Assembly: GCF_002727065.1 (NCBI RefSeq)
Contig: NZ_PDVP01000007.1
Span: 62,001 to 126,000, forward strand
Length of the DNA stretch: 64,000 nucleotides
Direction of reading: 5' to 3'
Origin: Zhengella mangrovi
GTDB taxonomy: Bacteria > Pseudomonadota > Alphaproteobacteria > Rhizobiales > Rhizobiaceae
This document shows positions 58,640 through 63,686 of the stretch, in pieces. The notes under the pieces are model-generated. The model ran no database searches. It was not told the origin of the DNA and was given only the letters and a program-made list of their open reading frames with translations. The position numbers and the translations under genes were made by a program. The first letter of the stretch is position 1. Each line of letters starts with the position of its first letter.

Positions 58640-59452
58640 TCAGCCTGCCGGCGCCGGTGCTTCACTGCCGGTGGCGATGCCGGCGACCATCCCTGATTCG
58701 ATCCAGCCGCGCAGGTAGCCGGCGACGCGCGGCGCGGCGGTCCCGGGATCGGCCATCATGGCCGCCATCTCGCACAGCAGGCCGAAGGACCGGCCTGCCA
58801 TGGCTTCGGCGAGCAGCATGGCTTCCTCCGGTTCCAGCGGCCGGTAGCGCGCCTGCAGGTCCGCGCGCCAGACAAGCGTGGCACAGCCGTTTGGGAGCGA
58901 TGCGGCATCCGGTGGCGTCTCGTCCTGCCTCAGGGCTGACAGTATGGCCGCGGCATTGGTGCCCGGCGTCAGCAGGCGCACCGATGGCGTGAACGCCAGA
59001 ACCATGTCCATGGCGCGCTCCGGCGGCAGCGCGGCGAGGTCCTGCAGCGATGCGGCCTCGCGGTCGGCGGCATCGAAGGCACCGGCGAGGGCCCATTGCA
59101 GGGCGGCCAGATCGCCGATCACGGGATGGGCGTTCCATGGCGCGGTGGCGGCCGCGAAGGCGGGGAACCGGTCGGCAAACCAGCGGGCGTTCGGTGTCGA
59201 TGACGGGCAGGCCTCGATATAGGCCGCCGAGAGCGCCTCGAACTGCGCGTCGCCGAGGAAGGCGTGAACGGCATCGAAATCATCGCGCAGGATGGCAGCG
59301 AGGCGCAGGCGGTAGGCGTTGCGATAGGTCGCCAGCCGGTCCTCGCGGCTGTTGTGCGGCGGCGCGGCGATCAGCGCCAGCGCGTCGTCGTCGCCATCCT
59401 TGATCGCGGCCTGCATCCGGGCTTGCAATTCGGCGAGCGTTGGCCGGGTCAT
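58640..59452 (-). CDS. bufC: DUF2063 bufferin maturation partner BufC
   Basis: A 270-residue protein. The N-terminal DUF2063 region reads LAELQARMQAAI...NSREDRLATYRNAYRLRLAAILRDDFDAVHAFLG with YIEACPSSTPNARWFADRFPAFA. A C-terminal helical part with LVWRADLQARYRPLEPEEAMLLAEAMAG follows. Family members bind the precursor peptide and assist the MNIO enzyme. Its ATG overlaps the bufB stop (ATGA). No DoxX-like bufD follows; the next gene is convergent. Confidence 0.87.
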   Translation of the reverse strand: MTRPTLAELQARMQAAIKDGDDDALALIAAPPHNSREDRLATYRNAYRLRLAAILRDDFDAVHAFLGDAQFEALSAAYIEACPSSTPNARWFADRFPAFAAATAPWNAHPVIGDLAALQWALAGAFDAADREAASLQDLAALPPERAMDMVLAFTPSVRLLTPGTNAAAILSALRQDETPPDAASLPNGCATLVWRADLQARYRPLEPEEAMLLAEAMAGRSFGLLCEMAAMMADPGTAAPRVAGYLRGWIESGMVAGIATGSEAPAPAG

Positions 59453-60309
59453 GCCGCGCGGATCTCCGTCGCGTCGCCCAGGACCTCGCGGGCGATGGCG
59501 CGGGCGCGATCCAGTTCCGCCAGCAACTCGGCCAGGGGCGGGATGTTGTCGTCGCGCTCGATCATGGTGGAAACCGGGCCGAAGCGCTGCAGGGCCTGGC
59601 GGTAGAGGTGGAAGACCGCATCGCTGACCGGCTGGTCGTGGGTATCGATCAGGTGGCCGTTGCCTTCGGAGTGACCTGCAAGGTGGAACTGGACGACCCG
59701 GTCGACGGGTATGGTCTCGATGAATCGTGCGCCGTCAAAGGCATGGTTGGCACCGGAAACGAAGACGTTGTTCACGTCGAGCAGCAGCCAGCAATCGGCG
59801 CGGCGCGCCATCTCTGCCACGAAGTCCCATTCGCTCATCTCGCTGTCGGCATATTCGATGTAGGAGGACACGTTCTCGATGGCGATACGCCGGCCAAGGT
59901 AATCCTGGACGCGGGCGATCCGGTCACAGACATGATCCAGCGCCTCTTCGGTGTAGGGGACCGGCAGGAGGTCGTGCAGGTTGACGCCGTGGACGCCGGT
60001 CCAGCACAGGTGGTCGGAAATCCAGCGCGGGTTCACGCGGTCCGCGAGCGCCCTGAGCCGTTCAAGGTAGGTCATGTCGAGCGGGCTGGTGGAGGCGATC
60101 GACATGGAGACGCCGTGCATGACGAGCGGATAGCGTTCGGCGATGCGGTCCAGCATCCGCATGGGCTGGCCACCGGCCGCGAAATAGTTTTCCGAGATGA
60201 CCTCGAACCAGTCGACCTGCGGATTGCCGTCGAGGATCTCGCCATAGTGCTGCGGGCGCAGGCCGAGGCCAAAACCGAGGCTTTCGGGTTTTCCGTCCTG
60301 TGCGGGCAT
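59449..60309 (-). CDS. bufB: MNIO-family (DUF692) peptide-modifying enzyme BufB
   Basis: Multinuclear non-heme iron oxidase predicted to oxidise cysteines of the bufferin precursor to thiooxazole-type groups. The 286-residue TIM-barrel protein begins GFGLGLRPQHYGEILDG and shows DWFEVISENYF, MHGVSMSIAST, ISDHLCWTG, IENVSSYIEY, WLLLDVNNVFVSGANH, FHLAGHS and DTHDQPVSD. These supply the His/Asp/Glu metal ligands of the family. ATG 60309 follows AGGAGA. It lies 82 bp after bufA and overlaps bufC. Confidence 0.92.
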   Translation of the reverse strand: MPAQDGKPESLGFGLGLRPQHYGEILDGNPQVDWFEVISENYFAAGGQPMRMLDRIAERYPLVMHGVSMSIASTSPLDMTYLERLRALADRVNPRWISDHLCWTGVHGVNLHDLLPVPYTEEALDHVCDRIARVQDYLGRRIAIENVSSYIEYADSEMSEWDFVAEMARRADCWLLLDVNNVFVSGANHAFDGARFIETIPVDRVVQFHLAGHSEGNGHLIDTHDQPVSDAVFHLYRQALQRFGPVSTMIERDDNIPPLAELLAELDRARAIAREVLGDATEIRAA

Positions 60310-60391
60310 CGTTGTCTCCTGGAACTGCGGGAAACCGGGAAAGGGCAGGTGGAAAGCCCCCGCGTTCCACCTGCCGCGGGCGGTTCGGCTC

Positions 60392-60652
60392 TTACTTGAG
60401 CACCTTGCCGCCCTGAGCGTCACACTCGTCCTTGGAGAGTGAAATGAAGCCCTGGCCCTTGCAGGCGTTCTGGCCATTGCACGAATTGGAGGCCGTGGCG
60501 CATTCGCCGTGGCCCTTGCAGGAATTCACGCCCATGCACTTGACCATACCATCGGCGGCCTGCGCCGTGGTGACCATCGGGGCGGTTCCGGACAGGGCCA
60601 GGGTGAAGGCGGCGGCGGCCAGCGCGGCTCCGGACTTGCCGATATGTTTCAT
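60392..60652 (-). CDS. bufA: Bufferin precursor peptide BufA (BufA2-like, six cysteines)
   Basis: An 86-residue secreted peptide. Residues 1-33 are a Sec signal (KSGAALAAAAFTLALSG...TAQA). The mature part holds six cysteines at 39, 45, 51, 58, 64 and 77. Two copies of C-x-G-x-N-x-C-K-G-x-G are visible (CMGVNSCKGHG and CNGQNACKGQG). This pattern matches periplasmic bufferin metallophores of the BufA2 type, which are modified by BufB/BufC and bind copper. GGGAG lies upstream of the ATG. First gene of bufA-bufB-bufC. Confidence 0.88.
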   Translation of the reverse strand: MKHIGKSGAALAAAAFTLALSGTAPMVTTAQAADGMVKCMGVNSCKGHGECATASNSCNGQNACKGQGFISLSKDECDAQGGKVLK

Positions 60653-60707
60653 GATCTTTCTCCCATCAGTTTGCAAAGCACGCGTCCTGCGTGCATGTCC
60701 AGAAAAC

Positions 60708-60722
60708 TGAACACAGCGTTCA
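60708..60722. promoter_or_regulatory. Inverted repeat upstream of bufA
   Basis: TGAAC-ACAGC-GTTCA, five-base arms around a five-base spacer, lies about 56-70 bp before the bufA start in the 135-bp gap after the Bcr/CflA gene. It is in the right place for an operator. The GTAAC-type ECF sigma promoter reported for Caulobacter bufferins was not seen. Confidence 0.35.
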
Positions 60723-60787
60723 ATGGGAAGGCACGATCCCGTGAGGGCTTCGTGTGCGCCGATGACGGAAACGTGGCGGCGGCGCGA

Positions 60788-62023
60788 TCAGGCTTCCGCC
60801 GGGCCAATCGTGAAGAGGTGGCCGCGCTCGGCAACGAGGACGCAAAGCAGGGCGGCCAGGGATACGGCGGCGAACCCCGCCATGACCGGCGTGATGGTGC
60901 CGTCGAAGGACTGGCCGATGGCCGCGCCGATGAGGGCGCTGCCGGTCGTCTGAAAGAAGCCCTGCGCCGAGGAGGCGATGCCGGCGACCCGCCCGAGCGG
61001 CTCCATGGCGATGGAGCTGAAATTGGAAGTGAGCATGCCGAAGGCGCACATGGTCACCGTGAACAGGCCGAGGAACAGGGGCAGCGGGACGACGCCCTGC
61101 AACGACAGGAGATAGAGCGTCGTGCTCGTCGCCAGGAAGACAAGAAGGGCGGAATGGGAAACGCGGCGCATGCCGAAGCGCTGCACGATGCGCGAATTGA
61201 GCCAGGAAAACAGCGACATCGAGCCCGCGACCAGCGCGAAGACCAGCGGAAAGGCCGTGCCGAGGTCGTAGATGCCGATGTAGATCTGCTGGACGGTGTT
61301 GATGAAGCCGAAGAGCGACGACAGGATTGCCGTCATGGCCAGCGTGTACCAAAGGGACATGCGGTTGGTGGCCACGGCGTGGAACCCGGCGGCGACGGCC
61401 CGGAACGAGACCGGCCGGCGATGATCCTCGGCCAGCGTTTCGGGGATGCGTAGCGCCATCCAGGCGATGACGGCCGCGCCGCCGAAACCCATGAAGAGGA
61501 AGATCGTGTGCCATTCGCCGGCCAGAAGAATGGCCTGGCCAAGCGCCGGCGCGACGACCGGCATGATCATGAAGACCATGAAGACAAGCGACATGATCTC
61601 GGCCATGGCGCGCCCGCCGGCGACGTCGCGCACCATGGCGACGGTCAGCACGCGCGTCGAGGCGGCGCCGGCGCCTTGCAGCAGGCGGAGCAGCAGAAGC
61701 GTCTGGAAGTCGGGGGCGAAGGCGGCGGCGAGGGCGGCGAGCACGTAGATCGACAGTCCGGCCAGCAGCGGTCCCTTGCGGCCAAAACGGTCGGACAGGG
61801 GGCCGAAGACCAGCTGCATGGCGCCGAAGCCGAGCAGGTAGGCGGTGATGACGAACTGGCGCTCGTTCTCGTCGGATACGCCGAGCGATGCGCCGATCTG
61901 CTGCATGCCGGGCAGCATGATGTCGATGGCCAGGGCGTTCAGGGCCATCAGCGCGGCCATGACGGCGACGAACTCGGCGCGGCCGACCGGCAGCGGCCAG
62001 CTTCTCTCGGGGACAGGAGACAT
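60788..62023 (-). CDS. Bcr/CflA-type MFS multidrug efflux transporter
   Basis: A 411-residue inner-membrane protein with 12 predicted helices. AIDIMLPGMQQIGASLGVS after TM1, the motif A loop FGPLSDRFGRKGPLLAG, and RLLQGAGAASTRVLTVAMVRDVAGG are typical of the drug:H+ antiporter DHA1 Bcr/CflA group. It lies directly upstream of bufA on the same strand, with 135 bp between; functional linkage to the bufferin genes is possible but unproven. Confidence 0.88.
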   Translation of the reverse strand: MSPVPERSWPLPVGRAEFVAVMAALMALNALAIDIMLPGMQQIGASLGVSDENERQFVITAYLLGFGAMQLVFGPLSDRFGRKGPLLAGLSIYVLAALAAAFAPDFQTLLLLRLLQGAGAASTRVLTVAMVRDVAGGRAMAEIMSLVFMVFMIMPVVAPALGQAILLAGEWHTIFLFMGFGGAAVIAWMALRIPETLAEDHRRPVSFRAVAAGFHAVATNRMSLWYTLAMTAILSSLFGFINTVQQIYIGIYDLGTAFPLVFALVAGSMSLFSWLNSRIVQRFGMRRVSHSALLVFLATSTTLYLLSLQGVVPLPLFLGLFTVTMCAFGMLTSNFSSIAMEPLGRVAGIASSAQGFFQTTGSALIGAAIGQSFDGTITPVMAGFAAVSLAALLCVLVAERGHLFTIGPAEA

Positions 62024-63428: not shown

Positions 63429-63686
63429 CTAGCGCTTCGTCCGGCGGCGGGTCGCGGTTTTCGCCCGTGTCTTGCGTTGCGTCGTCTTGGAGCGGCGGCG
63501 CGCCGTGGCCTTGCGGCTGGTCTGCTTCTTCGCCGGTGCGAGCATCTTTTCGAGTTCGCTGACGATCGTACCCGTGACGCCGGATGACCGGCGCCTGCGG
63601 CGGGTCGTGCGCCGCGGCTTTTTCAGGATTTCCTTCAGGGCCCCGTCGATGGTCTCGGAAATGATGTCCGTCAGGATGTTCGCCAT
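63429..63686 (-). CDS. Small Lys/Arg-rich protein, histone-H1-like tail
   Basis: An 85-residue protein. The first 23 residues form a plausible helix (MANILTDIISETIDGALKEILKK). About 60 residues rich in Arg, Lys, Ser and Thr follow (RRRRRSSGVTGTI; RKATARRRSKTTQRKTRAK), reminiscent of histone-H1-like or nucleic-acid-binding tails. The start is 13 bp downstream of bolA, suggesting co-transcription. No family was recognised and no strong ribosome site is visible, so existence is likely but not certain. Confidence 0.6.
   Translation of the reverse strand: MANILTDIISETIDGALKEILKKPRRTTRRRRRSSGVTGTIVSELEKMLAPAKKQTSRKATARRRSKTTQRKTRAKTATRRRTKR

Follow-up and report, generated by a model that had tools for sequence, protein, structure and literature searches.

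A short inverted repeat, TCACG-N4-CGTGA, recurs in front of bufferin genes of both the Buf1 and the Buf2 type and in front of cytochrome c' genes, a distribution that suggests a shared regulator. One copy, with a single mismatch, precedes the compact operon bufA-bufB-bufC in the window (the whole stretch of 64,000 nucleotides analysed). The operon is one more member of the known bufferin family, and the palindrome matters more than the operon itself: a shared short operator would offer a direct way to find both the regulator and the signal that bufferins answer. If a shared factor does bind there, bufferins would belong to a wider periplasmic redox or metal-stress regulon.

Table 1. Features of the bufABC locus (positions in the window)
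Feature	Position	Strand	Remarks
bufC	58640..59452	-	DUF2063 partner protein; C-terminal RRE-like domain
bufB	59449..60309	-	MNIO (DUF692) bufferin maturase
bufA-bufB hairpin	60344..60375	-	11-bp stem GGCAGGTGGAA/TTCCACCTGCC; no T-run
bufA2	60392..60652	-	86-aa Buf2-type bufferin precursor; ATG to TAA
Second imperfect palindrome	60707..60723	-	TTGAACGCTGTGTTCAG; upstream of bufA
Putative operator	60731..60744	-	TCACGGGATCGTGC; consensus TCACG-N4-CGTGA, one mismatch; 92 bp before bufA ATG
Bcr/CflA-family MFS exporter	60788..62023	-	TIGR00710, 222.1 bits (cut-off 200.9)

A compact Buf2-type bufferin operon

The focal locus is a Buf2-type bufferin operon with the gene order bufA-bufB-bufC. The initial annotation had placed a six-Cys peptide gene, bufB and bufC on one strand with an ATGA overlap, and this layout is confirmed: all three genes lie on the minus strand at the coordinates in Table 1, bufB and bufC share 4 bases (ATGA), and bufA and bufB are separated by 82 bp. 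Upstream, 135 bp separate the stop codon of a Bcr/CflA exporter gene from the bufA ATG; at the other end, 7 bp lie between the bufC stop and the end of a convergent inositol-monophosphatase-family (IMPase) gene. Neither DoxX nor any sigma or regulator gene adjoins bufABC.

The assignment to the bufferins, proposed from the initial reading, was upheld by family models. The bufA peptide scores 95.3 bits against the curated BufA2 model NF050166 (cut-off 60), of which it is the sole match in the genome; BufB scores 392.5 bits against NF050167 (cut-off 310) and 383 bits against PF05114; and BufC scores 71.9 bits against PF09836 (DUF2063; cut-off 27.2). The scores against the curated models leave no room for a chance explanation. 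An HvfABC oxazolin cluster was rejected, as the HvfB (281.2 bits, cut-off 360) and HvfC (31.7 bits, cut-off 142) models both fall short; the HvfC model describes a subfamily other than that of the focal BufC.

The precursor has six cysteines (positions 39, 45, 51, 58, 64 and 77), with Cys-Lys motifs at Cys45 and Cys64. Its N-terminus, with a basic start and a hydrophobic stretch ending in AQA (AQA-AD, read by eye), likely forms a Sec signal peptide. Among the first five cysteines, Lys comes directly after the second and fifth alone, a pattern common to five of 139 distinct cores (a count from which five precursors off the Cys pattern were excluded).

The MNIO core residues of BufB are conserved. 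In an alignment of 12 Buf2-type sequences and one Buf1-type sequence, H65, H100, E145, D178, N180, H189, H209, H213, D222, H224, E251 and D253 are invariant, and we take these to include the iron ligands. Structure-database matches of BufB are 3bww, 8hci, 7dz9 and 7tcr. The focal enzyme reads ERDD, the second Asp lying beside the presumed catalytic-base Asp; this extra Asp occurs in 11 of the 12 Buf2-type sequences and is replaced by Ala in the Buf1-type one, the position being inferred from adjacent numbering in an alignment that does not contain FonB. An Asp beside the catalytic base is described, in passages of PMC13097082, for enzymes with Cys-Lys substrates.

For BufC, a fold predicted from 23 aligned sequences (pLDDT 92.7) has the DUF2063 structure 3DEE as its top match (E 1.2e-6), followed by TglHI chains (8hi7, 8hci). 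Likeness to lasso-peptide RRE proteins is weak (6jx3, E 0.33; 5v1v, E 1.3). Sequence searches of the PDB with BufC and with BufA gave no match.

The source assembly (5.07 Mb in 76 contigs) contains two MNIO genes. The second belongs to a Buf1 cluster on contig C44, bufA1-B-C-DoxX on one strand, whose products all exceed their cut-offs: the DUF2282 precursor (72.8 bits, cut-off 22.4), BufB (374.2, cut-off 310), the DUF2063 protein (72.1, cut-off 27.2) and the DoxX protein (28.1, cut-off 23.6).

A palindrome before bufferin and cytochrome c' genes

BufA2 scores above its cut-off in 47 of 397 genomes of the order. Set 1 comprises 54 loci, from BufA2-positive genomes of the order and three close genomes. 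A second set of 73 loci was drawn from 80 loci in named genomes after seven had been set aside: L091, L093, L100 and L140, which are on the same contigs as set-1 loci, and L095, L097 and L098, which are close relatives of set-1 loci. BufA matches in 64 of the 73 loci and in none of the remaining nine, and not all are proven Buf2 loci.

The palindrome was first noticed in an alignment of ten bufA2 upstream regions. All gapped palindromes with 5-base arms were then screened in the 250 bp upstream of bufA2, across 55 non-redundant set-1 regions. TCACG-N4-CGTGA ranked first: it occurs, with at most one mismatch, in 19 of the 55, whereas the top palindrome of a resampled set reached at most 10 regions (mean 6.9; 100 sets). 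For this and all other palindrome expectations, each sequence was resampled by its own dinucleotide transitions; relatedness within genera inflates the counts. Further alphaproteobacterial Buf2 loci have the palindrome in 8 of 19 regions (7 of 13 loci; 0.25 regions expected), or in 10 of 24 regions and 9 of 16 loci with L095, L097 and L098 restored, while none of 67 non-alphaproteobacterial Buf2 regions has it.

The same palindrome, with at most one mismatch, precedes genes of two other kinds. It is found in 17 of 36 Buf1 regions (0.4 expected), or in 15 of 33 later-fetched regions once prior sightings—the bufA1 of this genome and that of its congener—are excluded. Cytochrome c' regions have it in 8 of 29 cases (0.5 expected), or 6 of 27 without the two loci that prompted the search (L206, L207); start codons were picked by rule, and one of 30 loci (L235) yielded none.

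Several lines of evidence tie the palindrome to upstream regions. Firstly, its density before bufA exceeds that in the rest of the loci in the Buf2 discovery set (1.47 vs 0.038 per kb), the further alphaproteobacterial Buf2 loci (2.22 vs 0.032) and the Buf1 loci (2.23 vs 0.023). Secondly, 37 of 48 sites in these three sets lie 88–149 bp ahead of the start codon. Thirdly, three control palindromes have no sites before bufA in the three alphaproteobacterial sets, and one of them occurs in 2 of 67 regions of the non-alphaproteobacterial set. The palindrome is not universal, however: at one mismatch it is missing from 36 of 55, 11 of 19 and 19 of 36 upstream regions, respectively.

Perfect copies are rare. 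The 5.07-Mb genome holds only two, one of them before a cytochrome c' gene that adjoins a superoxide dismutase gene. A perfect copy also precedes cytochrome c' in the congener G397, and in both genomes cytochrome c' has a superoxide dismutase gene ahead of it and a c-type cytochrome gene behind it. Loci L173/L206, L185/L207, L187/L194, L214 and L223 have perfect copies ~90–140 bp before cytochrome c'. Across 12 genomes there are 35 perfect sites vs 13 for the reversed pattern, an uneven excess that comes mainly from G397, G045 and G164. Before this genome's bufA1, the palindrome is TCACGCGCAAGTGA, at -114 with one mismatch. Looser copies are less telling than perfect ones: eight of nine further sites in this genome that fit TCACG-N2-A-N-CGTG, and three of six in G397, lie inside ORFs (called by a GC-frame heuristic).

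Three minor observations concern other palindromic sites. The other perfect copy in this genome (L196:1501-1514; G000:C1:135165) lies ~80 bp before a gene whose 280-aa product has a signal-like start and belongs to the beta-lactamase superfamily (MBL fold). In G397, a one-mismatch copy stands ~110 bp before a cold-shock-domain gene (L183, contig C29). The second palindrome upstream of the focal bufA, TTGAACGCTGTGTTCAG, has related forms in G397 (L033) and in a Nitratireductor MAG (L159).

A conserved hairpin between bufA and bufB

Hairpins recur between bufA and bufB. The gap contains an uninterrupted stem of at least nine pairs in 74 of 101 distinct gaps (30–300 bp) vs 11 expected when gap sequences are resampled by their own dinucleotide transitions, and 27 of the 101 have a stem with four or more T among the eight bases that come after it. 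What is conserved in Buf2 operons is the position of the hairpin, not its sequence. The focal stem is identical in G397; the fold of the whole focal gap does not go beyond shuffled sequences (z -1.22; 25 of 200 shuffles fold as well).

Promoter context and a possible shared regulator

A SigF-type promoter (GTAAC, 15–18 bases, CGAA) is present in 9 of 36 Buf1 regions. In six of these nine the palindrome lies 4–16 bp before the -35 box (11–12 bp in four), indicating that it occurs together with SigF rather than simply in its place. Eight other Buf1 regions, that of this genome's bufA1 included, contain the conserved block TTGATTTCCAAGTGA or a near form of it, and five of the eight have the palindrome. 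The loci with this block (L002, L087, L278, L281, L292, L294, L295 and L296) lack a SigF-type promoter, and in them it sits ~83–112 bp ahead of bufA1. Upstream of the focal bufA2 there is neither a SigF-type promoter nor a block of the TTGATTTCCAAGTGA type: a SigF promoter was rejected because the 135-bp gap has no GTAAC, and no sigma-70 promoter was found by consensus. The palindrome thus stays constant while the promoter behind it varies, which fits a separate factor.

We lean towards a model in which one dimeric factor across Hyphomicrobiales, whose gene lies apart from its targets, recognises TCACG-N4-CGTGA and controls the Buf1 and Buf2 operons and a cytochrome c' gene. It would be layered on SigF where SigF is present, and act independently of SigF where no NrsF is found, as here. 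Gene neighbourhoods of the palindrome, IMPase and Buf1 loci yielded no regulator candidate, and a search for a recurring regulator beside Buf1 operons gave only sigma/NrsF-like pairs in some loci (Pfam-confirmed in one, L273). This genome has an RskA-type anti-sigma gene on contig C14 with a sigma-like ORF immediately upstream (by eye); it was rejected as the regulator since its locus, L238, lacks TCAC-N6-GTGA. The congener's RskA-type locus has fasciclin- and MsrB-like genes as neighbours (by eye). Open-licence PMC papers, covered by a meaning-based search that cannot find sequence motifs, gave no description of the operator or of a Buf2 regulator. Excerpts of this literature explain regulation for SigF-type clusters only and name no Buf2 regulator; those on B. 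japonicum EcfQ/EcfF describe other motifs.

Alternatively, the palindrome might not be a regulator's site: it could form part of an ECF or housekeeping promoter, or have been left over from an upstream region inherited from a common ancestor. In favour of this reading are the similar distance to the -35 box in six of nine SigF-type loci and the origin of several sequences from the same genus. Yet the palindrome is two-fold symmetric, and what lies downstream of it varies, with at least three contexts (GTAAC-N-CGAA, TTGATTTCCAAGTGA and others); it precedes the non-homologous genes bufA1, bufA2 and cytochrome c'; and the remaining upstream DNA of the ten bufA2 loci aligned poorly. We therefore consider this alternative unlikely, if worth keeping in mind, and prefer the separate dimeric factor.

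A second alternative concerns the signal. Bufferin-type genes elsewhere answer gold, chromate and cadmium (excerpts of PMC10304878 and PMC3511200), and an operator that a cytochrome c' gene shares would be in keeping with a broader regulon for redox or NO stress, so that the locus could be devoted to a metal other than copper or to a different stress (gold, chromate or cadmium; oxidants or NO). Against this, the bufferins and captophorins studied so far bind copper (PMC12452194, PMC13097082, as excerpted), and the family model is named for copper. In Caulobacter, moreover, copper induces bufferin-type operons and a sigF mutant is copper-sensitive, according to passages of PMC8224329. A role apart from copper is, in our judgement, rather improbable, and copper remains the preferred ligand in the mechanism below.

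Proposed mechanism

We are highly confident of the operon's identity as a compact Buf2-type bufferin operon and of its general mechanism. In this scheme (i) BufC would hold the precursor in the cytoplasm, (ii) BufB, a multi-iron oxidase, would convert the Cys of the Cys-Lys motifs (most likely Cys45 and Cys64) into 5-thiooxazoles, (iii) the modified peptide would leave via Sec, and (iv) the thiooxazole peptide would bind excess copper in the periplasm. The modification sites, copper binding and export of the focal peptide are predicted by analogy with systems described in excerpts of PMC12452194 and PMC13097082. The hairpin may terminate or shield some of the bufA transcripts, such that precursor exceeds enzyme. 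Expression would depend on a factor encoded elsewhere that binds TCACG-N4-CGTGA, in common with the Buf1 cluster and the cytochrome c' gene. Family membership, gene order, insertion context and the statistical conservation of palindrome and hairpin are established here; the regulator itself is putative.

Absence of bufD and of a sigma factor gene

The initial annotation singled out the absence of a bufD gene. The gene is indeed missing from the locus, but the absence is no oddity: a bufferin locus without nearby DoxX is the usual state of comparable loci, and bufD absence was rejected as a special feature. Of the 54 set-1 loci, 48 have BufB and 43 have enough flank to assess; DoxX is absent within 3.5 kb in 33 of the 43 and present in 10, only one of which has it directly downstream on the same strand. 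These counts include related genomes without thinning, and proximity was judged with a home-made model (up to 14 short sequences) that may miss divergent DoxX. Of 62 assessable loci in the second set, 53 lack nearby DoxX and nine have it, in three cases on the same strand and no more than 0.7 kb downstream. Genome-wide, DoxX matches twice, one match being that in the C44 cluster. NrsF has no match in the whole genome, in a search that detected the Caulobacter positive control.

Similarly, the absence of an adjacent sigma gene, and with it the claim that control differs from the SigF model, stands; as a peculiarity of the locus it does not, for PMC12452194, as excerpted, reports sigma/NrsF genes for Buf1 clusters and none for Buf2 clusters. 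There are exceptions. An ECF-type sigma gene with an RskA-type anti-sigma gene lies directly upstream of bufA2 in 3 of the 48 set-1 loci with BufB (L037, L044 and L046), in a search of loci L033–L170 with one ECF sigma and two RskA queries. Weaker sigma matches occur in L068 and six second-set loci; two of these loci, L152 and L144, have a Pfam-confirmed sigma gene near bufB, the L144 precursor not being typical of Buf2.

An unrelated variation occurs at L078 and L084, where bufA2 and bufB are separated by two extra same-strand ORFs (132 and 240 aa, called by a simple GC-frame heuristic). Those of L078 encode a thioredoxin and a DsbD-type membrane protein, and some Buf2 operons may thus have their own disulfide-reducing pair.

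These features place the focal operon among known systems. With the Buf2 clusters of PMC12452194 (as excerpted) it shares precursor, MNIO and DUF2063 genes without sigma/NrsF, six cysteines, Cys-Lys motifs and the Asp beside the BufB catalytic-base position; it differs in having Lys after the second and fifth Cys only and in its own insertion site. The SigF-regulated operons of Caulobacter (passages of PMC3511200) have the same BufA-BufB-BufC core, with DoxX in CC3254–3257 and without it in the likewise SigF-controlled CC2907–CC2905, so a compact form exists there too. However, their precursors are annotated DUF2282 (Buf1), the focal one being BufA2, and they are controlled by SigF-NrsF via GTAACC-N16-CGAA. 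With no GTAAC in the focal gap, no DoxX in the operon and no NrsF match in the genome, the locus is not of the Caulobacter bufABCD type. The gigPABT operon of Cupriavidus metallidurans, which is copper- and gold-induced (PMC10304878, in part), also combines a small secreted Cys peptide with MNIO-like GigA and DUF2063-like GigB; a DoxX-like GigT and the divergently oriented ECF sigma gene rpoQ set gig apart. Finally, captophorins (fontiphorin, bulbicupramide, gonophorin; excerpts of PMC13097082 and PMC12538549) pair an MNIO with a DUF2063-type partner and yield a thiooxazole product, as would be expected here, but their precursors have a Lys-Cys repeat or another arrangement and not the Buf2 six-Cys core.

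Insertion site and the Bcr/CflA exporter

The window and the congener G397 share the gene order TtcA-like PP-loop gene, IMPase, bufCBA, Bcr/CflA, glutaredoxin, and, among the genomes examined, this insertion site is common to these two only. Using IMPase as the query, 30 loci were recovered from 41 genomes (ORFs called by a simple GC-frame heuristic), two of which contain buf genes. In 12 others, all from the same family, Bcr/CflA adjoins IMPase and none of the three buf genes has a match; a second IMPase copy intervenes in L246, and a spacer of about 0.4 kb in L243. The remaining 16 have no Bcr/CflA in the flank covered, and 13 of them are weak IMPase paralogues. A further genome of the family, G398, has bufABC with neither neighbour within its 12-kb locus (L034). 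The focal lineage therefore probably acquired bufABC by insertion between two old neighbours, IMPase and Bcr/CflA, and the locus illustrates how the module spreads, seemingly dropped in whole.

This history bears on the exporter, which the initial annotation had correctly placed directly upstream but which does not signal a link: it is an old neighbour that most likely predates bufABC at this site, and so provides no evidence for a connection with copper or export. It might be argued that bufABC and Bcr/CflA work together as a unit, with the peptide or its complex with copper as the exporter's cargo, given their shared strand, the short distance between them and the retention of the arrangement in G397. 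The 12 genomes without buf genes in which Bcr/CflA nevertheless adjoins IMPase led us to reject this link; in addition, no other set-1 locus has an adjacent Bcr/CflA (tblastn, E 1e-5; one weak partial match, in L084), and the precursor seems to have a signal peptide of its own. We regard the functional-unit reading as extremely improbable, and retain that of insertion beside an older exporter gene. Further along the window, an 85-aa ORF without a Pfam match (63429-63686, minus strand) has a tail strongly rich in Lys, Arg and Thr and lies close to the BolA and glutaredoxin genes.
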